A stretch of DNA of 64,000 bases from Haliclystus octoradiatus (taxonomy: Eukaryota > Cnidaria > Staurozoa > Stauromedusae > Haliclystidae). The translations under genes and the position numbers were made by a program. The stretch lies in NCBI GenBank assembly GCA_916610825.1, contig OU744450.1:2754578-2818577 (forward strand). Reading direction: 5' to 3'. Positions 7,334 to 59,829 of the stretch are shown piece after piece; positions within the stretch are counted from its first letter, which is position 1, and each line of letters opens with the position of its first letter. The notes below the pieces were generated by a model that saw only the letters and a list, made by a program, of their open reading frames with translations, did no database searches and was not told the DNA's origin.

Positions 7334-7391
7334 TCGCGTGAATTGATTGTAAAAATAATATTAGAATATTGTTCTGTTTCGTTTTGTTAAT

Positions 7392-8554: not shown

Positions 8555-9358
8555 CAGTCTTCAAACGTCGCGCTTTACATGCGCCGTGCTTTGCTTTGTC
8601 TGGCACGGCAGAATTGGAATTCTGGTTTCAATTCATTTCAGACGGCGTGAAATTGCCGTGCTTTGGCCATTGACGTCATCAAAATTGAAAGGCGTATTGC
8701 GCAATTATTGAAAGTAAAACTATCTTTAGCTAAATTTAGCAGTACCTGAAAATGATGTCACACTGTCTGAGATATAAGATTTCGGTTTAAGAGATCTAAT
8801 ATTTATTAGTTAAATTTCCTTCGAATATAAATGTTTTAATTTAAAAAAACAATTAAATCTCATAAAGAAATATTTGTTCTATCAAGCTATGTTACCAGTT
8901 AACATGCAACTGAAATGAAGGGCATCCTGAAATGTTTCCAACCTACATAGTAATAACATAGTAATAAAATTCACTATTTTAATAGACAGCAGAATACCAA
9001 ACAGTTGAGCATAATGAAGTAGTTTATAATTGGACTTTATGTTCACCAATATCATCGAGAAGTGAATGAAATGATAAAAAAACATCATAAAAACTACTAT
9101 TTTATCCCCAATTCGCATGAATTTGACCGAACATTCGTCTGAAAACAGACGAATAAAAGCTCGGCATCCAAAAAAGCACGCCTTATAAAACAACTGTCGT
9201 GCTGACGCCGCTCCGAGCGGCAACCATCGTCGTGCTTCGAGCTTTTGCCGAGCTAGACAAATTGTGTCGTGCTTTACTGATTTATACGTCGCGCTTTTGC
9301 CAGGTCTCGCCAGAAGATTAGCACGGCGCATGAAAAGCACGACGTTTGTAGACTGCCC
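8555..9358 (+). mobile_element. non-autonomous DNA transposon inside copia (~0.8 kb)
   Basis: The ends are ~35-bp imperfect inverted repeats starting CAGTCTTCAAACGTCG at the left; the right end read backwards gives CAGTCTACAAACGTCG. The flanks AACCAAGG (8547-8554) and AAACAAGG (9359-9366) look like an 8-bp target duplication with one change, suggesting a hAT- or P-like family. Terminal parts are rich in CGTGCT/GCACGAC motifs. It has no transposase; minus-strand frames in it are not coding. Confidence 0.75.
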
Positions 9359-9395
9359 AAACAAGGACAGCTATTCGGCACTGGCGTCAAAGTCG

Positions 9396-9427
9396 GTGAT
9401 AGTCGTGCTAGAGTGATAGTCGTGCTA
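9396..9427 (+). repeat. 17-bp tandem duplication that shifts the copia frame
   Basis: GTGATAGTCGTGCTA occurs at 9396-9410 and again at 9413-9427 (unit 17 bp including GA). The copia frame is open from 9362 into the first copy and again after the second, but 17 is not a multiple of three, so the duplication breaks translation in addition to the upstream insertion. Confidence 0.85.
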
Positions 9428-25984: not shown

Positions 25985-26095
25985 GGTTGTGGCTAGATCA
26001 GGGGTAACTCAAGGACATCGTGACGTCAGCCGATAATTATACTATTGTTTAGGATTTTTCACAAGCTTGTACGATAAAGCTAAAGTCTCGGGCGG
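25985..26095 (+). repeat. MULE left terminal inverted repeat
   Basis: Pairs with 34555-34659. The shared blocks include GGGGTAACTCAAGGACATCG, TGACGTCA and GTACGATAAAGCTAAAGTCT. Confidence 0.88.
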
Positions 26096-26859
26096 ACTGA
26101 AAGCCACTGGGTCCACAGTCCAATGTTAGGAAACCAAAAAACGCGCGAAATTGAGATTGACATTTTGACATAACAATCGCTTCAGCATGGTTGAACATGA
26201 CGGCTAACAACGACACCAATCTCATTTGTTGCTGTTCATTTAACAGAACAGAAGTTAGCATTTGAAAAATTTAAAGAAAATAGTAGAACAGACTGGCGGC
26301 GATCACATAAGCATTCTAACTTTGGTAGAACAACCATTAAACATGAATTTTGTCAAATAGCTCGTTACACTTATGTGAGATTTATGATAGGAATATACAT
26401 ATGTGAGTTTCGATCAAATCCATGCTTTATTTTGCTTCAAGCATTACAGTTTTGATGTCATGCAACCTTTTAATCATATATAAAAATACGATGCTCTGTT
26501 CTATAATCAGGCTACGGTATTAACCATAGAAAGCCCACTAATTATCATTTGTTTCATGTGCTTTGCTCTTAGAATTGAGTGTTGCTTCTCTCTTAAAAAA
26601 CCCGAAGCACAGAATATACTGGTAGCACAAAGCAGGAGTAGGCATATCGCATGCTTTTGATGGGGTGCCATTTCTATCTATTGGGACCGCCTGTTACCAT
26701 TGCCATCAAGGGAATGACATAGATGTAAATGCAAAAGAGAGACGTAAAAAGTCTCAAGAAAAGGTTCAAGTTAGTAATCTCTTAATACTGTGACATGTGA
26801 CAATCTGATCTGAAATATACAGTTACCGTAATAATCATAATGATGATAATAATCATATA

Positions 26860-27515
<656 letters not shown>

Positions 27516-27954
27516 GACTATCTCGGTTTACTTGCTGTCCCTTCAAAAATGCATTCTTGAACATCAAACACAGGCAATTGGACAGCACCTTCTTAAACAA
27601 CACAACCTCAAATCTTGCGACTGCTCTAAATGGTTCAGTGTTTTACAGCACTGTAAAAACAAAGCAGATTGCTCTATGCATGAGATGCTATTTATAAGAA
27701 AATTGAAACAACACTAAACACACAAAAGGAGTTGAAAAGTTATTAAAATATTGTTTTTATATTGTTATAAATATAAGTACTTGTGAAAATTTGTTTAGTT
27801 ATCTTGAAAATGATCATTATGGTAATTGAAACGTTGATCTTAATAAAATAATAAATTATGTTGTCACAAATTGCTTTGTCTGTCAAATAATAATAATGAT
27901 GATGATGAATTACTGATTAACTTATATTAACTTGAAACATTTATCATATGTAGG

Positions 27955-30900
27955 ATGGAGATCATGGCTTTATCAAGAGAAGAGGGTTTGTTCAATCAAC
28001 CATAAACTTGGATGCTCCAGTAAAATATTCATGTCAAGGATTGTTGCATTTCCAGAGTACAAGGTAGCAATTTCTTATTGAGATTTCTTCTTTTCTTCAA
28101 GGTTAAAATAAACGCAGATGGCAATTGCAGTGAAAGGAGAATGAAGGAATCACCTAAAAAGTTAAAAGAAAATATTAATAATAACCAAGAAGTGGCAGTA
28201 GATGATCGTTATTATATTTTATATCCAGGTTCTTCTACTCACAAATACCATTTAACAACTGGAGAGGTATGGTATGCTACATAAACCAAAATTATTTTCA
28301 TGCAGAGTACACATATATATATATATATATATCTGTTTAAGTTCTAAATTCAATAAATATTGCAGGTTACTGAACTACGAGAGGCAATCTGTCCTGAAAA
28401 TGTGGAAAAGATATACAAAGTTCATGTTTGAAGAGAGATTTTTACTGCTATACCAAATCAAAATGGATGCGTTGTTTGATGCTTCGTTATGGCCAAGATT
28501 TATGTCTTCTTGATGCAACATACAGGGTTTGCAGGTAATGTGAAAATAGCATCAGAGATGTAACATAACTAAATGTGAATTAACCAGGCATTTATTAGAA
28601 GTTACATGCTTTACATGCTTCTATGAAAATTGAATGAAATCGTCAAGTTTTTGTAAAATATTTGTGAAAATGTGCTATTCAACTTTTATAAGCTTGATGG
28701 CATGATAGTAAAAAGCAAACAAATTTTGATACCGGTATGTATATTGATAAAGTTTTGGTTTGCTTAAAATTGCAAATTGTGAAAATGCATGCATATCAAG
28801 CTATCTAAAGATATCTTTGAACAAAATTTCCTAAAAAAACACAAGCAATTGAGATGCGTAAATTTAAGAAATAGAAGTTGATGCTCTCTGCCCAATATTC
28901 ATGCAATAATGAATATCCAATTTTCACATAATATGATTAGAGTGCATTCCTTGGAACACCACTCAATGAAATCAATTTCTCGTTTATTTTACAGGTATGA
29001 AGTCCTTCTTTTTTTGTTTGCGTAAAAATGTCTGCTATGTAGTACCGGTAGTTGCAGTTTTAATTCTGGAGAACGAAGATGAAGAATCAATTGCAGAAGG
29101 TTTGAAGCTTACCAGCAAGAAAATTCCAAATTGGAAACCAACAAATTTTATTGTTGATTTTTCATTGGCTGAAATGAATGCACTCGAGTGTTGTTTTCCT
29201 GGTAAGTATTTTAATAACTGTACACTAACTATTCTGATATCATTAGTACATATTTATGTGTGACATTAATATTGGTTTGCGTTATTAATTTCAAGGCTTA
29301 TACATTCACCTGTGTGATTTCCACCGTAAAAAGGCCTGGAGTGAATGGTTATCCAAGCATGAACATAGAGTAGTTGCTGATTCTGATACAATACAAACCT
29401 ATCTTAATAGTATTGCTGATAGTTTAGATGAAGAGCAATATACACACAATTTAGAAATATTTAAAGAAAGTGCCATATGGAAGCAGTCAGAGAAGCTGCA
29501 ACACTTACATTACTTTACAAACTACTGGGAACATGTTAAGATGATTTTGAAATAAATTATTTCTAAGAATTTGCACTTATCCTCTGCAAAACCGGTAAAA
29601 CCACAGGTTGAACTGTAAACATATATTTCATTGTAGGCTATAGTTAAACTAAACACATTAGGAGAGGTAATTTCAATTTATTTTCAAATGTATATTGCAC
29701 GCTAGCAACAGAGATGATTAAGTTGATTGAATAAGTTAACATAATAACATTCAATAGGCTATAAATTATGCCTGAGCTATTTTATTTCTCTGCTTTAGAA
29801 ATGGGTGACGTTCCAACGGCAGAAATTGCTTGCTTTATCAGTGTATACCAATAACGGTATTGAAAGGCAAAACGGTTTATTGAAATCAAAAGCGCTAGAG
29901 AACAAGAAGAATGGGACCTTGAAAGAGCTGATGGAAGCAATTGTCACCGTTTTCCTACCAAACAGTTACAAAAGCATGTTCTGCTAAATACAATCTTAGT
30001 TTAGCTTGTTTCGGGTGATTTTGTATTATAATATAATATTTCTGTTATAGCCCCTGTAAAAAACAGTTCAGGAATTCACAGACAGTTCATGAACAGTTCA
30101 TGAAAATTTGAGGCAATCTAATGTTCATGAACTCCTGAACTGTTTTTCGCAGGTTATTGTTAATACTTGTTTAACAAATTATGTATTCATTGCAACATGG
30201 GTACAAGACATTAAACATGCAGGCAACATCATTGTACCGACAGTACCCTTCAATCATACTCACATTTTTTCACAATCGGCCACAAAATCTTGTGCAGCAC
30301 ATTACCATCAGACTTGAAGGGGCACAAACTCTGGATTTAAAAAATATAACGCGTATTGGTGATCGACATTTTACAATCCAAAGTGAAGAAGATTCAAGGA
30401 AGCAATATCATGTCTGGCTAGGAGATGACAATTAACTCCTAACATGTCAATGTGTGGACTTCTCAAGAAATAGAAGCCTGTGCAAGCATTTATGTGCTGT
30501 TGCAAGTTCTCATCAGAAAAAATGGGACTCTTTGGGGGAAAAGTTTTTGAATTATCCATATTTCAGGCTTGATGAATTAGTATTCAATGCTGAAGAGAGA
30601 AAAGTCTTGGAAAGTAATTCTCTTTCTTCTTCCGTTGTTCAGCTGTCCACATCTGTTCAATCCCCTTGTGTATCTGCTGAGCAATTGCAGTTAACAAACT
30701 ATGTGCCAAGTATGTCTGATTCATCCACTGATCTGTCAATTGATATATCTGATGATATAGACAACAACAGTCTAATCTTGGATTTGGAGGGCATCATCTA
30801 TGAACAAAAACCATCTACACAACCACTTTAGCTTTCTAATCGTAATAAATGTGTTTCAACAGTTAAATCTGTGATGGATACATTATATGTGATTACAGAT

Positions 30901-31190
30901 CCACAGTGTTTTGGTAGGCTGCACATCATGCTCAATGAAGCCCTGAAGTATGCAAGGTTAGTAAATATATTTGAGATGTTATCGACAAAAAAGAACGTTC
31001 ATTCCATGTGATTAACTTGAGCATTGTTTTCAATTATTCAGATTCCAACAACCAACAGACAACAAATTGCCATTAAAAGACAAAGATGGCTCACCTAAGA
31101 AAGCTAAGCAAGCAAAGAAATCGAAATCAAGAAATGCACCTATACATCGTCAACTGAAAGCAAGAAAGAAAAACAAAGCCAAACGCTATG
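27955..31190 (+). pseudogene. MULE transposase with SWIM zinc finger, intron-bearing, decayed
   Basis: Pieces in order: exon at about 27955-28066 (DGDHGFIKRRGF), 28104-28266, 28366-28531 with YGQDLCLLDATYR (first catalytic Asp), 28995-29201 with KNVCYVV and NFIVDFSLAEMNALE (second Asp), 29296-29552 (HLCDFHRKKAWSEWL), 29800-29990 with TNNGIERQNG (Glu region), 30310-30960 with the SWIM finger CQCVDFSRNRSLCKHLCAV, and 31041-31190 with a Lys-rich tail (QAKKSKSRNAP). Several borders are clean GT-AG, for example 29202 gtaagt and 29799 ttag. Lesions include frame changes around 28430-28530, TAA at 30433 and TAG at 30829. A DDE transposase would cut and paste the element; SWIM fingers bind DNA or protein. 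Confidence 0.82.
30051..30154. mobile_element. TTCATGAAC foldback MITE inside the MULE
   Basis: Begins CCCTGTAAAAAACAGTTCAG and ends in CTCCTGAACTGTTTTTCGCAGG; the ends pair. It lies between transposase exons. Confidence 0.75.
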
Positions 31191-31199
31191 GTGTGTATA

Positions 31200-33010
31200 A
31201 TTGTAATTCAATTGATGCTTTTTTCTTTCTTCAGTGTTTCAATGGAATAATGTTTAGAACTGCGCAATTCAAAGTAAAGTAAATGTAAACGACACTATAT
31301 GTCTATATTAATTGTATGAAAACGAGGTCAAAGTTTTATTGTTTTACTATCTACGTATAGGCTTGTATATTAATGTCAGTATTTTACTAGTTATTTAGTA
31401 CTCGTAATCTGATTGGTTGCAAATTATATTGCGCCTTTAGTTCAGCTTATAGTAATTTGTAATCGAATATATATTTATTGATCCTTTGAGTAAGTCTTCG
31501 TGTTTAGAAGCAAGGTCAATCACAGAACCGTACAATATATATTTAAATTTGCTTGTGTAAAGTTGTTACGAAACGATACTAAGGTATGTAACTTGTAATC
31601 ATTTATCTAATTATCTTAATTATTATTCATTTATCATTGTTTAATTAGTTTGTTTTCTATAATTGTTTTAATAGAAAAAGCTGCACTGCACACTGTACTG
31701 TACTGTATAATGCACGTTCAGAGAAAATTGCTCTTTGTCATTTATCGAGTTTTATTCTTATGTGCTGGTATTTTCAAATTCAAATGAGTTTCAACTATTA
31801 CGAGGTTTAGCAAATTCAGATATTACAGTAAAGTCAAACCTACGTGTATAAGAAGTGTCGTTTCACCTGTTGACATGCAAAGTACACGTATAAGGCATGC
31901 AAGACCAAATGGCCGTTATAGAAAGGTTTGACTGAACTATGAACACAGTAGGGGCCTATGCAAATATCAGCCCATTTAGCCTGAATATTGACTATCATTG
32001 GTAAACACAATCCACAATCCGCAAGAGCCAATTACGTGCCAATGTGAGTGTTATTATTAGTGATGTCACAAGCAAACTTAGTGAGTAGCCTAACCAGTGG
32101 GTTAATTTGCATTGAAGTAATTCAGCTAAACTTACTCATCATGCAGAGGAATTCTTTGTTGGTAATGCTTCTGACATCAGTCTGAACAGATTATATTCAA
32201 GAGATCTGATGTATGAACAAATTGTACGAGCATTCTAAATAAAAGGAATCATATATTTTTTGTAATATGCTTTCTGTAAACGCAGTGGATATTGTTCTGC
32301 CGGAAAGCTGTCCTCAAAGATAATGTAGTCCTTTGCGCATGCGTATGTAGATAGTAAACATGGCGGTGTCGATCAATCCAAATTAAATCTTAAATAGTTT
32401 GTAAAAAATTTATAGCACCTACATCGTAGATTGGATCGACTGTTTGGAATAAATATAAAACAAAATTGATATTCAACATATGTATGCATCAATCATTTTA
32501 TTGTGTGTTTGATTTATCGAAGCTTTTCAGCGATGCGACACAGCGTTTCCAATGTTTGAGTGTTGTGACATTTATTTGGCGCTCTTGAAAGATTTCAGAG
32601 AATATTTATGTAGCCTAACAATATTTCAAAGCAATTTACTTTGTTAATTTGTAGGCTAATAATATGGGATAATTAGGCCTACTTATTAGGCCTACCTACT
32701 TATTTTTCCTTTTCCTGTAACTGATGCTATATGCAGGCTACCAATTCTGATTTTGTCGTATACCAAAAGTCAAAACTCTGAAACTCAAAACCGAAGCCAA
32801 GTTCGTTCACTTTTCCTATAAGTTTGGAAGAACGGTTTGCGGGTTTGGTGTTGCATCTAGCGCCGTGAATCCCTCATATAAAGTGTTTTCAACCTCCAGC
32901 ACTTTAACGTTAAATTATTTTATATTCTTTCATTAAATTGATGAACATAATTGTTATTAACGTGATAGAGGAACAGGACCGTCCTTTGCCATTGCATCTT
33001 GCTTGAACAA
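31200..33010. other. MULE interior, no gene resolved
   Basis: AT-rich sequence between the transposase tail and the PHD-like exon. A short motif cluster, GCGCATGCG (32335-32343) and AACATGGCGG (32358-32367), resembles NRF1 and YY1 promoter sites; nothing else is recognisable. Confidence 0.4.
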
Positions 33011-33074
33011 ATGTGAGAGAAACAAAAACAACACATTACACATGCACAAGAGATGCACGGAACATTATCTCTAG

Positions 33075-33970
33075 CACTCCGTTTTTTTTATTGCATGGCG
33101 AGGGAAGACTGGAGGAATGCAAGATTTTCAAAGTATACTTTCACCTTTCATGCCATGACTATGACACACCGACAGCATATTGGCTGTGCAAAGATTGTAA
33201 AGAAGCTAGAAATGATGCTGAACAAGCTCACAAGCAGTGCCGGATTAACCCATAGGCGGTTTAGGCGGCCGCCTTAGGCCACAGATAAATAATAGGCCTC
33301 CGGAAATTATGAAAAAAAAAAAAAATTGAAAAAACGGTATTTTTGTGGTCTCTTATGAAATTCTCATATTTTAAACTAAATACAAGTGTAATTCAGTTTT
33401 ATTTACAAGCCATTGGTCAGATACATTCATACAGAAATTGATCAAATTGTTTACAAAGGTCAAGATTTAATTGTCATAACGATTTTGAATTTCCTTCCTG
33501 TCTCATAATTTTGGTGACAGCATTGCTATTTCGAGATCAAATTACACTTGCTATTCAAGGAAAACAATCATTGACAATAATAACACATTGTTATTAACCA
33601 CACATGATGACTTGTAACTTCCTGTTGTGAAAAAATGATCCCAAAAAGATCGTGTTGCCATGGCAACGACCGATGGCAGCTGCTCAAATAAAACTGATAC
33701 AACAAGTAAGTTGACTTTGAATGGGAAGGACATTCATTCCATACATTCTATTACAGTAATACTGTATTTATACTAAAAAAGTTATATTCCTAGGAGAGTG
33801 ATTTTCATTGCTCATATAAAAACAGAATAAAGGGGAGACCAACAAACAGTATAATTATGTTATTTTCACCAAATTTCCGGAAAAATTTTTTAGGCCCCAT
33901 ATTAATCAATCGCCTAAGGCCACTGATAATATTAATCCGGCACTGCTCACAAGCTGATCTTCGAATAGCT
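33075..33970 (+). pseudogene. PHD-finger-like last exon of the MULE gene, interrupted
   Basis: After a CTCTAG acceptor the frame reads FKVYFHLSCHDYDTPTAYWL then CKDCKEARNDAEQAH. The spacing H-x2-C...W-x-C-x2-C is that of the second half of a PHD or similar treble-clef zinc finger. A 711-bp hAT-type element was inserted at 33235; the exon resumes after 33953 and ends at TAG 33968-33970. It probably is the C-terminal exon of the transposase transcript, though the joining intron is not proven. Confidence 0.55.
33235..33945. mobile_element. hAT-type MITE, 711 bp, with perfect 8-bp target duplication
   Basis: Termini CAGTGCCGGATTAA...TTAATCCGGCACTG, with further paired blocks GGCGG/CCGCC-like and TTAGGCC near each end. 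CTCACAAG flanks it at 33227-33234 and 33946-33953. It encodes no transposase. It sits in the PHD-like exon of the MULE, so it post-dates it. Confidence 0.9.
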
Positions 33971-34120
33971 TCGTTCGTTTAACTTCTGTAAAAATTTTGT
34001 AAAATTATTTTACCAAAATACAGTTTGGAACATTACCTCCTGTATAATATTCATAAATCAATGTATATTAGATATTATCTAATAGCAAAAAATAGTGCTC
34101 GATATCATTTGACAGAGCTA

Positions 34121-34207
34121 AATATAATAAAAGGAGTCAAAGACTACACATTCATAATTCACAATTATGAATGTGTAGCCTAGTCTTTGACTCCTTTTCT
34201 TATATTT
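34121..34207. repeat. strong hairpin
   Basis: About 39 bp (AAAAGGAGTCAAAGACTACA...TTCATAATT) is followed almost at once by its reverse complement, with two extra bases. RNA or single-stranded DNA from here would fold into a ~38-bp stem with a tiny loop. It is inside the MULE, close to its right end. Confidence 0.85.
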
Positions 34208-34554
34208 TATTATAAATCAATATATATATAGTTCCTCATTGAATGATTTGTTTTATAACCTTACCTTACCCACCTTCACCATGTCATATTGAGCAGTAGA
34301 GGCAGACTGTCAGGTCAGACTCAGAGCAGAGTGTATAAAATTAGATGGATTCCATAACTGAACTGACAATATAATGTATCTTAGTCTTATCGTTTTCAAC
34401 TTCTTTCCATTTTTACGTAATAGATCGATGATTTGGTTTAACGTAACAATAGGCTTGTCTAACTAGTCTTTGATAAATATTAATTTCTAGTCGTTGCAAC
34501 AGCAATCCAAAATTGCAAAACTTTCCGCCATATTTAAAAATTACGAAACGATGC

Positions 34555-34659
34555 CCGAGACTTTAGCTTTATCGTACAAGACTGAAAAATCCTGAATGAT
34601 AGTATAATTGTCTGTTGACGTCACGATGTCCTTGAGTTACCCCTGATCTAGCCACGACC
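34555..34659 (-). repeat. MULE right terminal inverted repeat
   Basis: Reverse complement of 25985-26095, followed by the GTGTTTGAT duplication at 34660-34668. Confidence 0.88.
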
Positions 34660-34847
34660 GTGTTTGATCTTACTAAAGCAGTTCATGTTTAGTTATGACA
34701 ATTATCAGGTCTTGTCTATTGTCTCTTATTGTAGTATTAATATTGAGTAACTCGACATTAGTTACCACATTATCAGCTTAAAGCTATGTCTTAACGGCAT
34801 GGTTTAAGTGAAAATAATGCAGGCGTATTTATTCTGAATCCGAGCAT

Positions 34848-34910
34848 AGATAGATAGCCTGATGATCGCCTCGGCGTGAAACTTCAAGTAGCAAACATGA
34901 CTGTCTGATT
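34848..34910 (+). ncRNA. hammerhead ribozyme, first unit of the array
   Basis: Stem I 5' strand 34850-34857, CTGATGA 34859-34865, stem II 34867-34876, GAAA 34878-34881, stem III 34881-34883 with 34887-34889 around a UCA loop, cleavage after A34890, stem I 3' strand 34901-34909. It represents the 20 similar units downstream. Self-cleavage is inferred from the core, not shown. Confidence 0.7.
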
Positions 34911-37063
34911 CTCTGACTATTATTATATGCATCTTATTTTTTTATCATTAAATAGATAGCCTGATGATCGCCTCGGCGTGAAACTTCAAGTAGCAAACAT
35001 GACTGTCTGATTCTCTGACTATTATTATCTTATTTTTTATCATTGAATAGATAGCCTGATGATCGCCTCGGCGTGAAACTTCAAGTAGCAAACATGACTA
35101 TCTGATTCTCTGACTATTATTATATGCATCTTATTTTTTATCATTAAATAGATAGCCTGATGATCGCCTCGGCGTGAAACTTCAAGTAGCAAACATGACT
35201 GTCTGATTCTCTGACTATTATTATATGCATCTTATTTTTTATCATTGAGTAGATAGCCTGATGATTGCCTCGGCGTGAAACTTCAAGTAGCAAACATGAC
35301 TGTCTGATTCTCTGACTATTATTATATGCATCTTATTTTTTATCATTGAATAGATAGCCTGATGATTGCCTCGGTGTGAAACTTCAAGTAGCAAACATGA
35401 CTGTCTGATTCTCAGACTATTATTATATGCATCTTATAACTTCAAGTAGCAAACATGACTGTCTGATTCTCTGACTATTATTATATGCATCTTATTTTTT
35501 ATCATTGAATAGATAGCCTGATGATCGCCTCGGCGTGAAACTTCAAGTAGCAAACATGACTGTCTGATTCTCTGACTATTATTATATGCATCTTATTTTT
35601 TATCATTGAGTAGATAGCCTGATGATTGCCTCGGCGTGAAACTTCAAGTAGCAAACATGACTGTCTGATTCTCTGACTATTATTATATGCATCTTATTTT
35701 TTATCATTGAATAGATAGCCTGATGATTGCCTCGGTGTGAAACTTCAAGTAGCAAACATGACTGTCTGATTCTCAGACTATTATTATATGCATCTTATAA
35801 CTTCAAGTAGCAAACATGACTGTCTGATTCTCTGACTATTATTATATGCATCTTATTTTTTATCATTGAATAGATAGCCTGATGATCGCCTCGGCGTGAA
35901 ACTTCAAGTAGCAAACATGACTGTCTGATTCTCTGACTATTATTATATGCATCTTATTTTTTATCATTAAATAGATAGCCTGATGATCGCATCGGCGTGA
36001 AACTTCAAGTAGCAAACATGACTGTCTGATTCTCTGACTATTATTATATGCATCTTATTTTTTATCATTAAATAGATAGCCTGATGATCGCCTCGGCGTG
36101 AAACTTCAAGTAGCAAACATGACTGTCTGATTCTCTGACTATTATTATATGCATCTTATTTTTTATCATTAAATAGATAGCCTGATGATCGCCTCGGCGT
36201 GAAACTTCAAGTAGCAAACATGACTGTCTGATTCTCTGACTATTATTATATGCATCTTATTTTTTATCATTAAATAGATAGCCTGATGATCGCCTCGGCG
36301 TGAAACTTCAAGTAGCAAACATGACTGTCTGATTCTCTGACTATTATTATATGCATCTTATTTTTTATCATTGAATAGATAGCCTGATGATCGCATCGGC
36401 GTGAAACTTCAAGTAGCAAACATGACTGTCTGATTCTCTGACTATTATTATATGCATCTTATTTTTTATCATTAAATAGATAGCCTGATGATCGCCTCGG
36501 CGTGAAACTTCAAGTAGCAAACATGACTGTCTGATTCTCTGACTATTATTATATGCATCTTATTTTTTATCATTAAATAGATAGCCTGATGATCGCCTCG
36601 GCGTGAAACTTCAAGTAGCAAACATGACTGTCTGATTCTCTGACTATTATTATATGCATCTTATTTTTTATCATTAAATAGATAGCCTGATGATCGCCTC
36701 GGCGTGAAACTTCAAGTAGCAAACATGACTGTCTGATTCTCTGACTATTATTATATGCATCTTATTTTTTATCATTAAATAGATAGCCTGATGATCGCAT
36801 CGGCGTGAAACTTCAAGTAGCAAACATGACTGTCTGATTCTCTGACTATTATTATATGCATCTTATTTTTTATCATTAAATAGATAGCCTGATGATCGCC
36901 TCGGCGTGAAACTTCAAGTAGCAAACATGACTGTCTGATTCTCTGACTATTATTATATGCATCTTATTTTTTATCATTGAGTAGATAGCCTGATGATCGC
37001 CTCGGCGTGAAACTTCAAGTAGCAAACATGACTGTCTGATTCTCTGACTATTATTATATGCAT
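34853..37063 (+). repeat. 101-bp satellite carrying type I hammerhead ribozymes
   Basis: Twenty-one units start at 34853, 34955, 35050, 35151, 35252, 35353, 35512, 35613, 35714, 35873 and then every 101 bp to 36984; two partial units explain the 159-bp steps. Each has CTGATGA, a short stem II (CGCC-TC-GGCG or pairing variants), GAAAC, then ACT-TCA-AGT-A-GC. This is the order core 1, stem II, core 2, minimal stem III, GUA cleavage triplet of a type I hammerhead. Stem I can form from ATAGATAG before the core and CTGTCTGAT after it. Cleavage is predicted after AAGTA, e.g. between 34890 and 34891, releasing 101-nt RNAs. Caveats: the first stem II pair is U-U and stem III has 3 bp, so activity may need dimers. 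Confidence 0.8.
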
Positions 37064-37078
37064 TTTAGATTCTTAGAT

Positions 37079-37960
37079 ATAAAAAGAGAAACGAGACGTT
37101 TTCTCCGTTAGTTAAAGTTTCGCGCTGCAGCGCTCCTCCGACAGTTTTATTCGGTTATATGCATTTTGTATATATATCTGTAAAACAACGTATACTGGTT
37201 TAGATTTTTACAGTTACGATTTATATAAAATGAATATTAGACTAACATATATATTCAATTGTGTTTCTACATTCTACATTCTACATAGGAATGCAGTCTA
37301 TGAAGCACTAACTCTGACTAAATAATTAATATGTATAGTTACGGCCGTGTTTCTGATATCTTGGTTCAAACGCTGTATAGCTTCACATTCATTGAAGGAA
37401 ATACATTTCCCGAGCTTAGAAGCTTCCTTTAAGGTCAATAATTGCCGGTCAGAACTTCGTTCAAGTTTAAAATTATAAATAGTTTTTGAAGAATGAGTAG
37501 ATGAAAATAAAGAATTATAAAATAATGGTAATACAACGTACAATTACTATAAAATCTTTAAAACAGATATGACATTTTTAGTTTGTTTAATTTTAGTTAG
37601 TTAACAATTCTTGCATGCTTAGTTTTCAAGGTTCAAGTGAGGGTAAAATTTGAAACAAATTTAATTATGAATCAACGCAGGGGGGATTTAATGATTAGGG
37701 TCAACAAAGTTATTAATAATTTTTAAAAAAAATTATTAAATCGGCAAACGATCTTATTTTCTCAAGGTTGTGTAGATAAAAGTAAAAGTAATGTAGACGG
37801 TGTCGTCCTACCGAAGGCACCCGTACCACTCCTCTATTTCTAGATGAGTGGCTTTTTTTCGCTGAGAGCAATGATTTTAAACTCTCTTTGTTGATCTCAG
37901 CCGCGACACTGCAGATCAATTTCAACAGATTTCATGGCAGATAGGTCTTGATTGTCAATG
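37079..37960. other. spacer, no gene resolved
   Basis: After the satellite comes AT-rich sequence. Short open frames on the minus strand at 37298-37543 and 37713-37925 have no recognisable domain. Confidence 0.4.
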
Positions 37961-38887: not shown

Positions 38888-41800
38888 TTATTTCTGATAA
38901 ATCTCATCAGCTAATAAATTATTTGATAATTCTTGTAAATCTTTTAATGCATTGATAATTTCATCATTTTTTCTAGGAGATATTTCATGCTTTGTCTTGA
39001 ACTGACCTGAATAAAAAAATGAGATTAGAGATTGTAGATTCAAGATTCACTCAAGATTCAAGAGGTGACTGTTAGAGCAGGTTTGAATGTACAAGGTGGA
39101 TTCCATATACAGTGAAACCTGTATATAACAGCCAGCTACCAGAGGTTGATAAATTGACCATTATAGACAGGTGGCCTTCATATACAGGTTTGATTCAATA
39201 GAAAATACCATTTTAGACATTGCAAGAGTGACCACTACAGACAGGTGGCCGCTGTATATAGGTGACTGTTATAACAGGTTTGACTGTATTGATTTTTGAT
39301 TTGAAAATGATCTACAACACCACTTCATAATGATTCATTATTCAGCTGTTCAAAAAATGGAAAGCAATAAATCAATTAATTGTAATTAATATGTTAACCT
39401 GGAATTGCTGGATCATGGTTAATTTTCCTCTTTCCAAAACTTTCTTGTTTGATAGTTGTTAAAAGTACATTTCTCTCTTTCTCACTTTCAATTAATTTCT
39501 CTTTGACACGTTTAAGTTCTACTTCGTGTTCTTGATTAAGAACTTTTACGTCTGTTTCAAATTTATCTTTTTCTCTCTCAAGACTTCGTTCAAGATGACC
39601 AAACGATATGATTAACTTTGCATGTTCTTGTCGCGTTTCTTCAATTATACAATTTAACTTTGTAATATCAGTTTCAAGAACACCTCGTTGATCCGCTAGT
39701 TTTTGTTCATAATTTTTCGTTAAATTTAAACGATCTCGCGTTGAATCCGCTTGTAATATTGATAAATCTTCTGTTATAGTATTATTTGTGTTTGATAATA
39801 TTTCAAATTGATTCGATAAATCAATATTGGACATTTTCATAACTTGTAATTCTTGTTTAAGATTCAGCAGTTCGTCTTCTTTTGTAAGTATATCACTTTC
39901 TACATTATTATGTATAGCTTGAATTTTACTATCCATTAATTCAGCATCACGTTTTAATTGATTAGATAGCATGCATCTTTCTTCAGATAACTTCTGCACT
40001 TCATTTTCAAGGTTATCATAATCTACACATCTTGGACATAAATCTGATAAATACAGAAGCATAAAATAAATATACAGTGTAACCCGCTTATGTGTAATTC
40101 GGACAAGTGAAATTCCCGCTCATCTGCAACCTGGCTTTGAAACCCGTTAAACAATTTTCTGGTCAAGTCCTTGGTAAACAATTTCGGATAACTGCAAATT
40201 CGGATAAATGCAATGAAAACCGTTGGCAATTTTGACTTGCACTTAAGCGGGTTAAACTGTACAACATGAATTGGCAAACAAAATGGAGCAAATCAAAAGG
40301 TTTCAAAGGTTTACGGGCTGGATTTAGTGGTTTCAAATCAATACAGGAATGTTTGAATAAGTTTTCCTTGTTTACGTAAGGATATATATTGAGTGGATAT
40401 TTTCATAGTTGAAAGGTTTAATATTCAAGTGTTTGTAATTTACAAAGTTTGATGCATAAAAAGGCAAAAATGGCATTTCAGGAATTAAACTGTTGGTAAT
40501 GAATGAGTACAATCATTATGTGAAAGTGGCCTTATACAGGGTTGATTCAATGGAAAACACTATTTTAGACATATCAATAATGACCCCTGTAGACAGGTGG
40601 TTACTGTATAGAGGTGACCTTTATCACAAGTTTGACTGTATAAGGTCACACACGCTACTACACTTACTGTTGAAAGCATGTAATTGTTTCTCTTTCAAAG
40701 TAGATGAATCTTGAGATGTTAGGAATTTCTTTCTTGCAATAAGATCTAAAATTGAAGTGAAATAAAAAGTACAAAATTTCAGTAACACTTACTCACATTT
40801 GAAATTTTTCCTTTCAGGGGTGGCATCAGGAATTCCCCACAAAGGGGCTATTTATAGAAAATATTTGTCAACATGATTGAAAAAGTATCAACATTTTCCT
40901 TCCCAGTCAAAACATTTTTCCCCAACAAGGGGGCTAAATGTCGCCAACAGGGGGTGTATCCCCCCTGCCCCTTACTCTGGTGCCACCCTTGTTCTCACCT
41001 TTGATTGTCTGTAATCTGTCTAATGCAAATCCAACACGTTTTTCTTGCATATTCCATTTCACACTAGCTGTACATAACTGTTGTAAAATTGTTTCAAAAT
41101 CTGACTTAAATTGTAACAAATAAAATTCCACTTTCTTCTCGACATCAATATGCTTTGTTGAGGTATCAACTAATACCGAAAGTCTGTTTCTTAATTGAAT
41201 ATTATCGGCTGATAACGTGTTTAAAGTATTTTTAAGATTCGATATCTCGGCTTCTTTTCCAGTTGTTGCCATCTGAAGAAGATGTTTTGCATTTTCTGTA
41301 TTCATCAATGATTCTTTAACTTCAGCAACCTAGAAATATTAGAATAATCATAATACAGTCAGTATTGATAAATATGTTATCGATGGGAGCTCAAAAATTA
41401 TAACCATTATGCGACTAATTAAGTAATACAGTGAAACCTGTATATAACGGCCACCTTTGAGAGGTAGATAAATTGACCATTATAGACAGGTGGTCTTTTT
41501 ATACAGGTTTAATTCAATAGAAAATACTATTTTAGACATTGCAAGAGTGACCACTATAGACAGGTGGCCGCTGTATAGAGGTGACCGTTATAACAGGTTT
41601 GACTGTATATGATTTTAAAAGAACAATACAAATAATAATAATTATTATTATATTCCGTTTTCAGTCAACTACATGATGACTGATAGTCACCAGATGGTAG
41701 GCCTACATCAATTTCAAAGGTGCTTGTGCTAACCTCCCATTTCTAGAGGAATGGCATTTCCCTGCCCTTCGCCCTTCACCTATGCAGATTTTGATCACCA

Positions 41801-52664: not shown

Positions 52665-53954
52665 TTAATCTGGAATAAATCTATTTGGTGGTCTAACCAC
52701 TCTACCACTCTTTCTTGTAGCTGTATCACCATTTGTATCACCATTTCTCCCATTATTTTGCAATACATCATTATCGTTAGTATCATCGGCTACTTCTAGA
52801 TCATGATCTTCTTCATCAGTAGTAATACTTGGTACTAACTTTAGATGTTGCCGATTCCTCCGGTATATTGCTCCATTGAATTTAATTAAGTATGATCTTC
52901 TTGACTTATTAGCAGCAATAATTTTCCCTTTTTCACTCCTTTTGTTATCCTTCCCAATACGAGTACGTACGTAATCATTTACTTTTAATACCGGTAAATC
53001 TTGTGCTCCATTTCGAGAGTCATAATTTTTCTTGTACCTTTCTTTTTGTTGAATATCATTTTTCCTCATCTGTCTATCCACTGGTGATTTTGGTATGAGA
53101 GTTGATGGTAGAACTGGCAATTTCGTCTGAAGATTTCGTCCCATCAGCGCTACAGCTGGTGCAACACCTGTTGTACGATGTGTTGTATTTCTATGTTGTT
53201 TTTCTTTCCAACGTTCTTTTTTCTTAACTTCAGGCAAAATAGGAAACGGTACTCTACGCGGAGCTGTCACGCAAGAAGGAGTAGCACCATCCTTAAGGGT
53301 GATTTTTACTGGTGTTGTAATCATTTTACCAAAAGATGCAAATATATTATTTTCAATATTGTCAATGCGTTTAATTAGATTAAATGTAATGAGTTCATTT
53401 CGTCCTAACAAATTGTTTTTCGTTCCACGGATTACATATATCTCACAGTTCTCAAACGTTGAACCGTGACATAACTTAGTTGTAAACTTACCAACACAAC
53501 GAACTGCCCCGCCAGGCGATGACAGGTGTTTACTTACGGCTGCAAGTTCAGGTTTCGGATATAAACTTTTCCAAGTGCTCTCTGTAATAACTGTAACGTC
53601 TGCACCAGTATCCAATTTAAATTCTATATCTTTCATATTTATCTTCATGTTTATATTCCATGGTTCCGCATTGGCTTTGTTGTATGTAATGGAATCCAAA
53701 TAAAATTCATCATTGCTATCCTCGTCTGTCTCAACTTCTACTATTTCCCTGATATTCTTTGAACGACACATTTTCGCAAAATGTCCTGGTCGTTTACATT
53801 TGTTGCAACTCTTTCCTTTTGCAGGACATCGATCTTGCTCGTGTTGATATCCACATTGGCTGCAATCTTGATTTTGACGCGTTGTTCGTGTTGCTGTTGA
53901 CGACCAATTCCTCTGATATCGACCTTTGTTTGACCGCAACTCTTGAACACCCAA
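52665..53954 (-). pseudogene. gypsy nucleocapsid-protease fused to integrase C-terminus, core deleted
   Basis: In frame with gag after one TAG. Two zinc knuckles (CSQCGYQHEQDRC and CNKCKRPGHFAKMC) are followed by an aspartic protease with KLDTGADVTVI. The first residues of RT (APRRVPFPILPEVKK) then run directly into the end of integrase (VAPAVALMGRNLQTKLP) and a C-terminal domain with YRRNRQHLKLV. About 800 residues expected between them are absent, yet the frame stays open for 429 codons. The first codon is TTG, so translation would require readthrough of the TAG. Confidence 0.88.
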
Positions 53955-54539
53955 CTATTCATTCACGATCGACACGCTATCATCATCTTCATTCATTCGC
54001 GATTGTTGTTTAATTTGCATTTTAATCATCTCTGTTTGTCTTGAGATATCAATAGCTTTGGCCAAAGTTAATCCACTGGTAAGCTGTAATTTTTGCTTGA
54101 CTTGTTTGTCTTTCAGACCAAGAACAAGACGATCACGAACGTGGTCATCTGCGTCGATATACGAACAATGAATAACTAATTCTTGTAATGACCGAATATA
54201 TTCTTCAACGGATTCCCCTTGGTTTTGTCTCCTTTCGTTAAAAATCGCCCGTTCATGTATTATGTTTCGTTTAGGGATGAAATATCCTGTAAATTTCTCA
54301 CTGATTTCTTTATAATATTCGTCTGCGTCATCTGGCTTTATTTTAGAATCCAACGATAACGTTTTAAAAATCTTTGAAGCTTCTCTGCCACCCATGCAGT
54401 AAATTAAAGCATCTCGTTGATTTTCACCAACTTGTTTATCAAGAAACGAAATTCTTCTGAACCGGTTAAAATCATCTAACCAATCTTCCCAATCGGCCGG
54501 TTTAAATGAAAATTTCGCTGGCTGTTGATATTGTGCCAT
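53955..54539 (-). CDS. gypsy Gag (capsid part), 194 aa
   Basis: ATG 54539 to TAG 53955. Motifs FNRFRRISFLD, FTGYFIPKRNIIHERAIFN and RRQNQGESVEEYIRSLQEL are typical of Ty3/gypsy retrotransposon Gag. The following codons, with nucleocapsid zinc knuckles, are in the same frame directly after the TAG. The stop is either a readthrough site or a mutation. Confidence 0.9.
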   Translation of the reverse strand: MAQYQQPAKFSFKPADWEDWLDDFNRFRRISFLDKQVGENQRDALIYCMGGREASKIFKTLSLDSKIKPDDADEYYKEISEKFTGYFIPKRNIIHERAIFNERRQNQGESVEEYIRSLQELVIHCSYIDADDHVRDRLVLGLKDKQVKQKLQLTSGLTLAKAIDISRQTEMIKMQIKQQSRMNEDDDSVSIVNE

Positions 54540-54956
54540 TTTGGCTAACGCTGATTTTAACAGTTGTTATAACGTATAGAATAAGCATGAATAATGTATA
54601 AGTATGTAATCATAAGTTCAAGCTCTCCCTAAGCTTACATGTGCTACTGAACTTATTGAATAGCCTCATTTACATGAATAGTAAGTTACAGACTAAAGAT
54701 GGCTAACATTATAACAACAGTTAGTAATTAAAAGTTTAAGTGGTAAGTGGTAAGGAGCGGACGTGTAAAAGAACGAAGAAGAAGAAACAAGAAGAAAAAC
54801 GATTTGGTAACAGGGTATACTATGAGTTGTTTGTTAACGTTAATTATCCAAGTAGTGTTGAATATATGTAAATGATTTACTTTATTTTTTGAAATTTATT
54901 TAACAAACTTGAATTTCGCGGTCAACGGTTGAATCACACATTGTTTGCTTTAACTT

Positions 54957-56500
54957 AAAAAAGGGGCGTTTACTATTTAAACTTTGATACCGTTTGATAA
55001 TAGATAAATCATTTCGTTTTTATGATCTGCTAGCTGAGACGATTTGCTTGAAAGGTTAGTTAGACTCGATATAAAGTGAAATTGTTTTTATTCCTTATTT
55101 ATCAAAATTTAAACGTTCCAATTTTAATATTTTCCGTGATATTTTTGGTTTTTCAATTTTGAAAAAGGGGCGTTTACTATTTTTAAACTTTGATACCGTT
55201 TGATAACAGATTAATTATTTCGTTTTATGATCTGCTAACTGAGACGACTTGCTTGAAAAGTTAGTTAGACCCAATATAAAGTGAAATTTTTTATTCCTTG
55301 TTTATCAAAATTTAAACGTTCCAATTTTAATATTTCTTGTGATATTTGTGTTTTGTCGATTTTTTAAAAAAGGGGCGTTTACTATTTAAACTTTGATACC
55401 GTTTGATAACAGATTAATTATTTCGTTTTATGATCTACTAACTGAGACGACTTGCTTGAAAGGTTAGTTAATATAAAGTGACATTTTTTTATTCCTTGTT
55501 TATCAAAATTTAAACGTTCCAATTTTAATATTTCTTGTGATATTTTTGTTTTGTCGATTTTTTTAAAAAAGGGGCGTTACTGTTTAAACTTTGATACCGT
55601 TTGATAACAGATTGATTATTTCGTTTTATGATCTGCTAGCCGAGACGACTTGCTTGAAAAGTTAGTTAGACCCAATATAAAGTGAAATTTTTTATCCTTG
55701 TTTATCAAAATTTAAACGTTCCAATTTTAATATTTCTTGTGATATTTTTGTTTTGTCGATTTTTAAAAAAGGGGCGTTTACTGTTTAAACTTTGATACCG
55801 TTTGATAACAGATTAATTATTTCGTTTTATGATCTGCTAACTGAGACGACTTGCTTGAAAGGTTAGTTGATATAAAGCGAAATTTTTTATTCCTTGTTTA
55901 TCAAAATTTAAACGCTCCAATTTCATTATTTCTTGTGATATTTTTGTTTTGTCGATTTTTTAAAAAAAGGGGCGTTTACTATTTAAACTTCGATACCGCT
56001 TGATAACAGACTAATTATTTCGCTTTATGATCTGCTAACCGAGACGACTTGCTTGAAAGGTTAGTTAATATAAAGTGACATTTTTTTTATTCCTTGTTTA
56101 TCAAAATTTAAACGTTCCAATTTTAATATTTCTTGTGATATTTTTGTTTTGTCGATTTTTTTTTTTTTAAAAAGGGGCGTTTACTGTTTAAACTTTGATA
56201 CCGTTTGATAACAGATTAATTATTTCGCTTTATGATCTGCTAACCGAGACGACTTGCTTGAAAAGTTAGTTAGACCCAATATAAAGTGAAATTTTTTATT
56301 CCTTGTTCATCAAATTTAAACGTTCCAATTTTTATAATTCTTGTGATATTTTTGTTTTGTCAAGTTTGAAAAAGGGGCGTTTACTATTTAAACTTTGATA
56401 CCGGTTTGATAACAGATTACTTATTTCGCTTTATGATCTGCTAACTTAAGACGACTTGCTTGAAAGGTTAGTTAGATTCAAGTAAAAGTGAAATTTTTAC
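54957..56500 (+). promoter_or_regulatory. eight ~200-bp tandem monomers, LINE 5' region
   Basis: Each unit starts with AAAAAGGGGCGTTTACT followed by AAACTTTGATACCGTTTGAT, GATCTGCTAACTGAGACGAC and TTTAAACGTTCCAATTTTA. GGGGCG occurs at about 54963, 55167, 55372, 55571, 55771, 55969, 56174 and 56374. By analogy with monomeric LINE promoters these could drive transcription, one per monomer; that is inference. Confidence 0.75.
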
Positions 56501-56781
56501 TCCTTGTTTGTCAAAACATAAACTTCCCAGTTTTGTGCTCTGTTTGTATAAGTTTGTGCATTGTAGCTCCTGTTGTTCCAAATTTTCGAAATTGGTAAAG
56601 AAACTGTTTATACAAGGTAAGCATTTGACACTCAGCTCCTGGTAAGTAATTTAATTTAGATGAAACAATAGCGAAAGTACAACAAAAGCCGGCTGTGAAG
56701 GGTGACTCCTCACAAACTCCATCGGAGAGTTTAAATAACATACAAGTCAAATGGTCAACAACAAAAATATCTGTCAATAAA

Positions 56782-59700
56782 ATGACTAACGTTAATGATG
56801 TAACACATGGAATAATAAAAAATAAATTCAACGTAGGAACCTTAAATGTAAGAGGTTTAAACTCAAAAATGAAAAGACAACAATTGGCAAATGATATGTG
56901 CAAATATGAACTGTCAATATTAGCCATACAAGAAACCAAGTTGAAAGAAGAAGGAATATTTAATATACAAACAAGTGACAATAAGAAAAGATATGAAGTA
57001 TTTCACACTGGAAATCAAGAAAATCGACATTATGGTGTTGGTATTGTTGTAGAAAAGGGATTAAAAGTAGAATACAAAACAATATCCAGTAGAATATGTA
57101 TAGCAACTGTTAATTTAAATAAAATAATAATAAATAAAAAATGTAATAATAGAAACATAATTTTCATTTCCACATATGCACCAACCTTAGTTACTAGTGA
57201 GAAAAATCCTAAAATAAAAGAAGATTATTATGAACAATTAGAAAGTGTAATAAAAAATGTAAACAGTAGAGATATTTGTATTATAGGGGGGGATCAAAAT
57301 GCAAAAACTGGGCTAGGTACAGAAGAATTCCCGCAAGTAATTGGAAGGTATGGAAAAGGGGTGATGAATTCAAATGGAAGATCACTCGCAGAAATGCTCC
57401 TCAGAAATGACATGATGCTTTGCAATACCATGTTTCCACACAAAATGGCTCATAGAACAACCTGGGAAGCGCCTATAAGGAAAGAAGATCACAATGATAA
57501 AAACGGAAATTTAAGAAACAATCCATATCGAAATCAGATAGACTACATCATAATGAAAGTTAAACATAAAATATTTATTGAAGATTCAAGATCATATAGT
57601 GGAATAGAAACCTATACAGATCACAGGCTAGTAAAAACTAAGCTCAACATAAGATGGCGTAAAATGAAATATAAGACACCTCCAGAAAGACTAAATATCC
57701 AAGCATTAAAAGATGAAGAGAAACAATTCGATTACCATCAAAAAGTTGTACAAAATCTGAACAATATCGAGGCTAGCAACGTGCAAGAGAAATGGTTAAA
57801 AATTGTGACATCGTGTAGAGACGCTGCAAATGAAGTAGTGGGAACAACTAACAAAAACCAGAAAAGTCAGAATAAAGATATTAAAAAGCTATCAGATAAA
57901 CAGAAAGAGTTAAGAAATAAAATAAATAAAACTAATAATAAAAAAGAAAAAATTAAACTCGCTAAAGAGAGAAACCTTATTATGAAAGAAATACATTTTA
58001 AGATTCAAGAAGAAGAGATATCACATATAATGGAGCTAGTAGAGCAAATAGAAAAATTAAAACCAGACTCTAGAAGAATGTTTCAAGTTATCAAGCATCT
58101 TCAAAACATAAATAGTAATAACCGAGTAATAGTAAGTGGAAAAAATGGTGTAACAACAGATAAAAATGAACAATTAAACATAATAACAAAATACTTCGAA
58201 GGAGTTTTTTGTAAAACTTCAGAAAAAGATATTACAACAATACAACCAGAGAAGATGAAAGAACCTTTCAATCCACAAGAAGTTAAATCAGCTATCAAGT
58301 CCTTGAAAAACGGAAAAAGTCCAGGCATTGATAATTTAAACGCAGAACTTTTAAAACATGGTCCAGCTCATATTAGTCAACAGATAAGTGACATATTTAA
58401 TATAATTGCAGCTACAGGTGAGTTTCCAAAAGAAATCAAAGAAGGGCTTCTTGTACCATTGCCAAAACCAGGCAAGAAGCCAGGCCCGGCAGCTCACCTG
58501 AGACCTGTCATTTTACTTTCTGTACTGCGAAAACTCCTGGCCATTTGTATGTTACGAAGATGTCTAGGAAAGTTCAACAAAAAGATTCCCTTGACACAAG
58601 CAGCATACCAACAAGGCAGAAGTACCACTGAACAAGTGTTCAGCTTTAAAATACTAGCAGAAAAAGCAATTACCTCAGAGAATTATCAAATTATATTATT
58701 ATTACTAGATATGTCAAAAGCATTCGATACAGTCAGAAGATGCGATATGATCAATATATTGAAGGAAATCTTAGATAACGATGAGCTACATATGATGAAA
58801 ATACTAATAGAGGATGTTACTTTAAAAGTTAAATTGAAGGAAACAATAGGAAAAAATATCAATAGTAATATTGGTGTACCACAAGGTGACTGTCTCAGTC
58901 CCATCTTATTTGTAATCTATCTAGCTGATGCACTTAAAAAATGTAATCACATCACTAATCCATCGCATGCTCATGATCACACATATATAATAGGAGACCA
59001 ACATAAAATTTTAATAGACCAACAATATGCAGATGATATCAGTTACATAACAACTAATCAAGAAGACAACCAAAGAATTAGAAAAAGAATACCAGACATG
59101 TTGAAAGCGTATAATTTACAAGTCAATGATACCAAGACTGAAGAATATGTAATAAAACGAGGAACAGGTGAAAATGAAGACTGGAAAAACTGTAAATACT
59201 TAGGAAGCCTTTTAGATACAGATAAAGATATAAATAGACGGAAAATACTAGCGATTAATTCATACAATAAGTTAAAATATATATTTGAAAGTAGAAAAGT
59301 AGAAACTAAAACTAAAATGAGAATATTCAGAACGCATGTAGAAAGCATATTTTTTTATAACTGTGAGTTATGGACTTGTACACACAATCATGAAAACACC
59401 ATCGATATATTTCAAAGAAAACTGTTACGGAGAATTTTAAACTTAACATGGGAAGACAAAACCACAAACACTACACTATATAAAATGTCTTATCAGTCAC
59501 CTTGGAGTCTTGAAGTAAAAGCCAGACGACTCAGATGGTATGGTCATTTATTACGCTTGCCAGAACGCACTCCTGCCAAACGAGCACTCGATGAAGCACT
59601 ACTGTTCTGGCCAAAGCCACGAGGGGCACCAAAAACGACATGGCTCAAAATAATTAATGATGATTTAAAAGCACTGAATGTTGAAATTTGCACAAAAAAC

Positions 59701-59829
59701 ATAACTGATAATCAAATAATAAAACGAAAACTTAACATTAAAGAACTAAAAGAACTAACAAAAGATAGAAAAACATGGCGGATTATTGTTGACCGCGCAG
59801 TGTCCTCGTCCTGGGACGGAAAAGCGTGA
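56782..59829 (+). CDS. LINE endonuclease-reverse transcriptase, ~1015 aa
   Basis: The frame is open from 56650, but the first ATG is 56782 (a GTG lies at 56695). N-terminus: apurinic-type endonuclease (GTLNVRGLNSKMKRQQL, AIQETKL, STYAP, IGGDQNAKTG, RNQIDYIIM, YTDHRLV). Centre: reverse transcriptase with LKNGKSPGIDNLNAELLKHG, LRPVILLSVLRKLLA, LLLDMSKAFDTV, GVPQGDCLSPILF and catalytic QQYADDIS. C-terminus: RRLRWYGHLLRLPERTPAKR, a motif seen after RT in several metazoan LINE groups. No internal stop. The enzyme nicks target DNA and primes reverse transcription of its own RNA there. Confidence 0.95.
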   Translation: MTNVNDVTHGIIKNKFNVGTLNVRGLNSKMKRQQLANDMCKYELSILAIQETKLKEEGIFNIQTSDNKKRYEVFHTGNQENRHYGVGIVVEKGLKVEYKTISSRICIATVNLNKIIINKKCNNRNIIFISTYAPTLVTSEKNPKIKEDYYEQLESVIKNVNSRDICIIGGDQNAKTGLGTEEFPQVIGRYGKGVMNSNGRSLAEMLLRNDMMLCNTMFPHKMAHRTTWEAPIRKEDHNDKNGNLRNNPYRNQIDYIIMKVKHKIFIEDSRSYSGIETYTDHRLVKTKLNIRWRKMKYKTPPERLNIQALKDEEKQFDYHQKVVQNLNNIEASNVQEKWLKIVTSCRDAANEVVGTTNKNQKSQNKDIKKLSDKQKELRNKINKTNNKKEKIKLAKERNLIMKEIHFKIQEEEISHIMELVEQIEKLKPDSRRMFQVIKHLQNINSNNRVIVSGKNGVTTDKNEQLNIITKYFEGVFCKTSEKDITTIQPEKMKEPFNPQEVKSAIKSLKNGKSPGIDNLNAELLKHGPAHISQQISDIFNIIAATGEFPKEIKEGLLVPLPKPGKKPGPAAHLRPVILLSVLRKLLAICMLRRCLGKFNKKIPLTQAAYQQGRSTTEQVFSFKILAEKAITSENYQIILLLLDMSKAFDTVRRCDMINILKEILDNDELHMMKILIEDVTLKVKLKETIGKNINSNIGVPQGDCLSPILFVIYLADALKKCNHITNPSHAHDHTYIIGDQHKILIDQQYADDISYITTNQEDNQRIRKRIPDMLKAYNLQVNDTKTEEYVIKRGTGENEDWKNCKYLGSLLDTDKDINRRKILAINSYNKLKYIFESRKVETKTKMRIFRTHVESIFFYNCELWTCTHNHENTIDIFQRKLLRRILNLTWEDKTTNTTLYKMSYQSPWSLEVKARRLRWYGHLLRLPERTPAKRALDEALLFWPKPRGAPKTTWLKIINDDLKALNVEICTKNITDNQIIKRKLNIKELKELTKDRKTWRIIVDRAVSSSWDGKA

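Follow-up and report, generated by a model that had tools for sequence, protein, structure and literature searches.

The 101-bp tandem array found in the 64,000-nt stretch of Haliclystus octoradiatus DNA analysed here (the window) is built of units that are, to judge from their sequence, real type I hammerhead motifs with a minimal stem III, a kind that is already known. The array as a whole is best read, with a probability of roughly 80%, as a local satellite derived from an amplified hammerhead fragment of a Penelope-like element, which would have grown at the DNA level and in which the ribozyme would now be a weakened passenger. Briefly, a hammerhead piece of roughly 90 bp from a Penelope-like retrotransposon would have been duplicated head-to-tail along with some 11 bp from the site of its insertion, the founder unit would have passed a broken third stem I pair to all units, and the array would grow by unequal exchange and not via RNA, with the ribozyme carried along. 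So read, the locus is a clear example from nature of how a Penelope hammerhead turns into a satellite, and relatives of the motif abound in the genome (2578 sites of a strict pattern). The cytochrome oxidase I of this genome shows 97% identity to a Myostaurida cluster represented by a code (HALAN) that probably denotes Haliclystus antarcticus.

Hammerhead motifs of the array

A period of 101 bp and 21.9 copies were reported by TRF for the array, and the features of the locus are collected in Table 1. The original prediction of a type I hammerhead with minimal stem III in every full unit was borne out in 21 of 21 units by a descriptor and by a covariance model, while its uniform unit length of 101 bp holds for the period and not for each unit, the first being 102 bp long, one 95 bp and two 159 bp. 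Both 159-bp units include a 58-bp truncated copy that lacks the CTGATGA half. When cut at the cores, the 21 segments reduce to 10 distinct sequences, the commonest of which is present eight times, and 10 variable positions were found over 78 columns of the 21 units with the core invariant in all 21.

The core pattern CTGATGA...GAAA was matched 29 times in the window, where 5.1 matches would be expected by chance, and 21 of these lie on the + strand inside the array, have the form CTGATGA-12 nt-GAAA and are each continued by C-TTC-AAGTA-GCAAAC. A hammerhead descriptor that requires the core, at least 3 bp in each of stems II and III, and pairs 1.1 and 1.2 of stem I was matched 21 times in the window, always inside the array, and at four places in total in 100 dinucleotide-shuffled windows. 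By this descriptor (stem I of at least 2 bp) CUGANGA, GAAA and UH occur in order in 21/21 units, with three helices and the open end at stem I. Covariance model R1, which draws on 22 H. octoradiatus hammerheads belonging to related families and leaves the array's family out, likewise matched 21/21 units with scores of 55.1-61.9 bits (E 1.8e-14 to 1.1e-16).

Table 1. Coordinates of hammerhead-related features in the window and of the 260/261-bp repeat elsewhere in the genome
Feature	Position	Strand	Source
Decayed Penelope-type hammerhead outside the array, core ATGATGA (C3 lost)	4553-4603	+	model R1
101-bp tandem array, 21 full hammerhead units and two truncated units	34850-37067	+	TRF, unit listing, covariance model 21/21
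Example hammerhead, second unit	34951-35002	+	covariance-model alignment, unit listing
Example unit: stem I 5' strand; CTGATGA; stem II	34957-34960; 34961-34967; 34968-34979		
Example unit: GAA; stem III; A17; stem I 3' strand	34980-34982; 34983-34991; 34992; 34993-34996		
Example unit: predicted cut site	between 34992 and 34993		hammerhead anatomy
Higher-order repeat, 361 bp, 3.0 copies, 98% match	35077-36159	+	TRF
Truncated 58-bp unit without CTGATGA/stem II half	35438-35495 (about)	+	TRF, unit listing
Second truncated 58-bp unit, inside duplicated 361-bp block	35799-35856 (about)	+	TRF, unit listing
TTATATGCATTTT at 37054 and 37155, bracketing inverted fragment	37054-37167		motif search
Inverted decayed hammerhead fragment, Penelope family E	37074-37152	-	directly right of array
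260/261-bp hammerhead repeat	L041:80-760, also L036, L038, L046; C1:29911925-29913491 and others		

No family reached its gathering score when Rfam was run over the window, and no hammerhead was returned over the array at E up to 10. Weak Rfam matches to STnc230 were far under that family's own cut-off and were taken as chance. The Rfam hammerheads were also absent (E up to 0.5) from 11 loci of the same genome that hold clear hammerheads, which makes the negative result on the array uninformative, and a genome-wide search with Hammerhead_1 gave 0 matches with 73 of 24130 candidates scored and a control that gave no signal anywhere. The lack of a covariance-model hit had been put forward as a refutation of the hammerhead; Rfam was run and gave 0 hammerhead matches, but the argument is invalid here since other families are missed too. 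In the 11 loci tested, the Penelope-type hammerhead class is missed by the Rfam models.

The hammerhead was favoured thermodynamically in no array unit and in no scorable relative, and folding energy was therefore left out as support. The hammerhead-constrained ensemble was at +5.5-10.9 kcal/mol relative to the free ensemble in the 10 distinct array units and at +4.1-8.6 kcal/mol in the 10 of 16 distinct family-A copies that were scored, the other six being without a required pair, and folding energy does not cleanly separate the array units from the family-A copies. In 20/20 pairs of neighbouring units a double hammerhead was preferred over two separate ones by 1.9-2.8 kcal/mol, but the single and double states were both 12.4-24.3 kcal/mol above the free ensemble. 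One array unit (z 0.63) and one dispersed copy (z 1.46) folded no better than their shuffles, and one family-E copy folded much better than shuffles (z -4.31) in a different fold.

Penelope-like relatives in the genome

The array sequence is dispersed: with 40 of 1126 candidates scored, 51 of 63 genome matches fall outside the array and for the most part span the same roughly 91 bp of the unit, and 143 of the 164 core sites at up to one mismatch are also outside it. An inverted second copy 25 bp to 5 kb away was present in 11 of the 20 dispersed loci fetched, which had been picked from the genome match list with pairs preferred. The strict pattern CTGANGA-12-GAAACT-3-AGTH occurs at 1272 + 1306 = 2578 genome sites, array included, and at 0 sites in a reversed control.

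Open frames around one dispersed locus include GLYRDDGLA, which we take to be a reverse transcriptase motif, and a GIY-YIG-like motif, presumably the NYIGLTEG of the putative endonuclease reading frame. This frame gave 150 scored matches among 2186 candidates in the genome, and a same-strand hammerhead matched by model R1 was located downstream in 30 of 30 loci (the best 30 of the 150 scored, L055 and L056 overlapping each other), matches that arise partly by construction because 19 of the 22 model rows come from these loci. The constant distance from endonuclease to hammerhead is not a product of model construction, ranging over 149-1272 nt in all and falling at about 150-370 nt in 29/30 and at 149-260 nt in 28/30. 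The array itself carries no gene, and the RT and endonuclease neighbours are known from related loci. A 563-aa frame at one locus had 3277 relatives among 7994 scored, and for a 714-aa relative that shares 59% identity with the jellyfish protein AlphaFold gave a model with a pLDDT of 76.7 and a pTM of 0.50. Telomerase RT made up four of the top five PDB matches to this predicted fold, in loose alignments with a TM of about 0.3. The GIY-YIG domain is read from its motif and has next to no Pfam support, with a match in one of 20 relatives (E 0.024) and none in the jellyfish protein itself. Unlike the fold comparison, searching Pfam and PDB with the Penelope protein sequence yielded nothing of use.

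Pair statistics were taken from 100 listed of the 2578 sites, all in the first 11.4 Mb of C1 and comprising 52 distinct sequences. The stem III pair 15.4/16.4, which flanks a single middle base, was formed in 97 of the 100 listed and 49 of the 52 distinct sites as A-T, T-A, C-G or T-G, where 2000 shuffles gave a mean of 28.5 and a maximum of 39 of 52. Since a single base is too short a loop for a hairpin, pairing at 15.4/16.4 points to two paired hammerheads. The source-family hammerhead would most likely work as a double (dimeric) hammerhead cutting transcripts of the element at GUA|G. Among the distinct rows, stem II pairs 2 and 4 exceeded shuffles (29 and 4 of 2000 reach the value), stem II pairs 1 and 3 and the loop-closing positions showed no excess over 2000 shuffles, and position 10.1/11.1 was mostly U.U (31/52).

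Across the 22 rows from other families 92.8% of cells form pairs, as against 27-53% once the structure is slid, and covariation was 0.456 vs 0.235 in shuffles (0/500), counts that do not represent independent events because the rows share ancestry. A 41-row alignment agreed with the covariation of these 22 rows. For the same 22 rows, the number of pairs changed on both sides (6/12) was reached by 54 of 500 shuffles and the count of further pair types by 500 of 500.

The array is regarded as an amplified Penelope fragment because hammerheads accompany Penelope-type endonuclease loci and their families show compensatory changes, and a Penelope origin is well supported by sequence. Penelope-like elements had been named beforehand among the possible sources, and the dispersed relatives and the 30/30 endonuclease loci lend this substance. 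The piece that was amplified would correspond to the 3' end region of such an element, by analogy its pLTR. In the available parts of PMC3846280 and PMC11167929, Penelope-like elements are described as having a telomerase-like RT, pLTRs in inverted or direct orientation as well as solo ones, and short target duplications. That hammerheads of this kind act as dimers has been published (Lunse et al. 2017, as cited in the available parts of PMC7761336 and PMC6466107). For the Anolis element PAc, the accessible text of PMC11167929 describes hammerhead mutants that left in vitro insertion unchanged and no reads ending at the hammerhead cut site, and a review, in the part at hand, calls the role of Penelope hammerhead motifs a mystery (PMC7761336). 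Cutting may therefore not matter even in the source family.

Two head-to-tail hammerheads were located 87 bp apart at L036:2582 and 2669 (+), the second belonging to family D, and nested insertions may set hammerheads in tandem in this way. Five family-A hammerheads on one strand, 5.5-10 kb apart, were found at C2:37437574-37466516. At the stem I position that is A in the array these copies carry G, and they are perhaps part of a larger tandem block.

Stem I defect, growth of the array and alternative readings

The core-adjacent 4-bp stem I helix covaries between families and is TTGC/GCAA in the dispersed copies. In the array its third pair is A opposite A in 21/21 units, which leaves every unit without the full 4-bp stem I, although this is not required of every hammerhead. 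Of 41 other distinct copies, 40 keep a standard U-A or C-G at this pair. Among 100 listed of the 164 sites at up to one mismatch, AGATAGCC was present in 21/21 array units and in 0 of the 79 other sites, which carry AGATTGCC in 74 cases and AGATGGCC in five. The best array unit scored 61.9 bits with model R1 vs 70.1 bits for 13 of 32 dispersed-locus matches, eight of the 32 scoring below it, and the commonest array unit differs from the 70.1-bit copies by this one stem I base over 52 model columns. Weak or no cutting is expected since the founder change breaks the third stem I pair, and the activity of the array ribozyme is probably lowered. The stem I originally drawn finds no support, the core-adjacent helix being the one that covaries between families and is damaged in the array.

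Selection on stem II had also been suggested from variants that remain pairable and finds no support here, because any C-G pair hit by a C-to-T change still pairs as a U-G wobble. The two C-to-T changes (4/21 and 2/21 units) both lie in CpG and look like single events because they sit in duplicated blocks.

The 34-base unit junction was found at 18 genome places at up to three mismatches, all in the array, and the linker motif TTATATGCAT at 23 places in the window, all within 34923-37155. Directly to the right of the array, the inverted family-E fragment was matched by model R1 at 37099-37150 (-) with 47.8 bits, the best other genome match being 92% over the length of the fragment. The linker looks like local target DNA because its motif also flanks this neighbouring fragment, and together with the 361-bp higher-order repeat this argues for growth by unequal exchange at the DNA level. 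At its left end the array begins within the element and lacks the linker motif, a feature that is not explained by local duplication. The two copies of TTATATGCATTTT that bracket the family-E fragment are exactly 101 bp apart, the same distance as the array period, perhaps by chance.

It is scarcely credible that the repeat is of a non-ribozyme kind and resembles a hammerhead by chance. The silence of the Rfam hammerhead models at gathering score and at E up to 10 and the unfavourable folding energies would agree with such a reading, which was rejected on the 21 descriptor matches in the array vs four in 100 shuffles and is also opposed by the 2578 strict sites vs 0 in the reversed control and by the covariation between hammerhead families. 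A locally kept and still active tandem ribozyme that shortens transcripts through the locus is unlikely. A mismatch in stem I need not abolish hammerhead activity, so that the array's defect is compatible with this reading, and 21 intact cores also speak for it, as does a tandem order that is what dimeric hammerheads need (PMC6466107, in its available part). Against it, the nearest gene-matching frame in the seven reading frames scanned, an HCR-like coiled coil at 39394-40119, is located on the other strand, and the founder change sits in a pair kept in 40/41 relatives. The unchanged core in 21/21 units could mean constraint, while youth of the array explains it equally.

A minimal retrozyme, in which dimeric hammerheads would cut the array transcript to 101-nt RNA, a host ligase would close it into circles and Penelope RT would return concatemers to the genome, is quite improbable, although tandem hammerheads with a self-complementary stem III, the better energy of the double hammerhead in 20/20 neighbouring pairs (by 1.9-2.8 kcal/mol), Penelope genes in the same genome and published retrozyme repeats of 150-450 bp (PMC7229834, available part) are all consistent with it. 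A rolling-circle origin was rejected as the leading account because the linker looks local and the junction occurs at one locus, where many dispersed short multimers would be looked for and 18 of 18 junction sites fall in one array. The broken stem I pair in 21/21 units, the height of both hammerhead states above the free ensemble, the unit that folds no better than its shuffles and a length of 101 nt, below the published range, count against it as well. The same genome holds a 260/261-bp repeat with its own minimal hammerhead and a palindromic stem III (ACATGT), near Penelope genes, whose core occurs at 301 + 293 = 594 genome sites at up to two mismatches. Among the 100 sites listed, some are single and others form runs of as many as seven copies at a spacing of 261 bp. 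This repeat is probably a retrozyme of H. octoradiatus and the 101-bp array is unlike it, and the 101-nt RNAs that may circularise in the original prediction lose ground on the contrast between a junction at one locus and a retrozyme-like repeat with 594 sites. There is only a slim chance that the array represents an emerging retrozyme, in which a tandem Penelope fragment would gain the dimer arrangement and could yield 101-nt RNAs and circles; if true, it would show how animal retrozymes arise from Penelope repeats. The local satellite with a weakened ribozyme is thus the preferred reading, and in one small genome two questions can be put, whether tandem order is enough to make arrays of these motifs cut RNA and whether Penelope repeats give rise to retrozymes.

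Known hammerhead repeats and other features of the window

Minimal type I hammerheads known from Penelope-like elements (Cervera and de la Pena 2014; Lunse, Weinberg and Breaker 2017, as cited in the available parts of PMC7761336, PMC6466107 and PMC8490949) have the same core as the array and a self-complementary, very short stem III. These hammerheads also share a place in element repeats, a tandem or inverted arrangement and an expected action as dimers, whereas the array is the motif amplified alone in 101-bp units, with no element gene and with the stem I defect. The metazoan non-LTR retrozymes, as described in the accessible part of PMC7229834, likewise carry a single type I hammerhead in each unit of a tandem repeat, but with units of 150-450 bp and abundant circular RNA of about 170-400 nt, whereas the array has 101-bp units, occupies one locus and is known from DNA.

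Satellite units with minimal hammerheads and an extremely short stem III also occur in the Schistosoma W-elements, which in the portion of PMC8490949 at hand have units of 333-415 bp in three of four hammerhead families, are widely dispersed and include some tested motifs that cut in vitro. The newt hammerhead resides in satellite DNA as well and cuts via a dimer, its unit being a few hundred bp long according to the available part of PMC6155905, vs 101 bp in the array. No title listed from the literature searched, outside which most subscription papers lie, announces H. octoradiatus hammerheads or a Penelope hammerhead satellite of ~100 bp.

The window also includes a probable 8.7-kb transposon at 25985-34660, with inverted ends of about 109 bp that are 90% alike. 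It looks young because its right end has copies elsewhere that are 100% identical over 360 bp, and a TAA microsatellite of 684 bp lies inside it. An unrelated repeat to the left of the array, probably a transposon end, stops near 34660. Two further satellites, at 5627-6761 and 54955-56534, have periods of 192 and 198 bp and gave no model R1 match at E up to 10. Retrotransposon frames of Copia-like, gag-protease and LINE-like type, which stay open over long stretches, are located at 7365-12054, 52665-54566 and 56650-59829.
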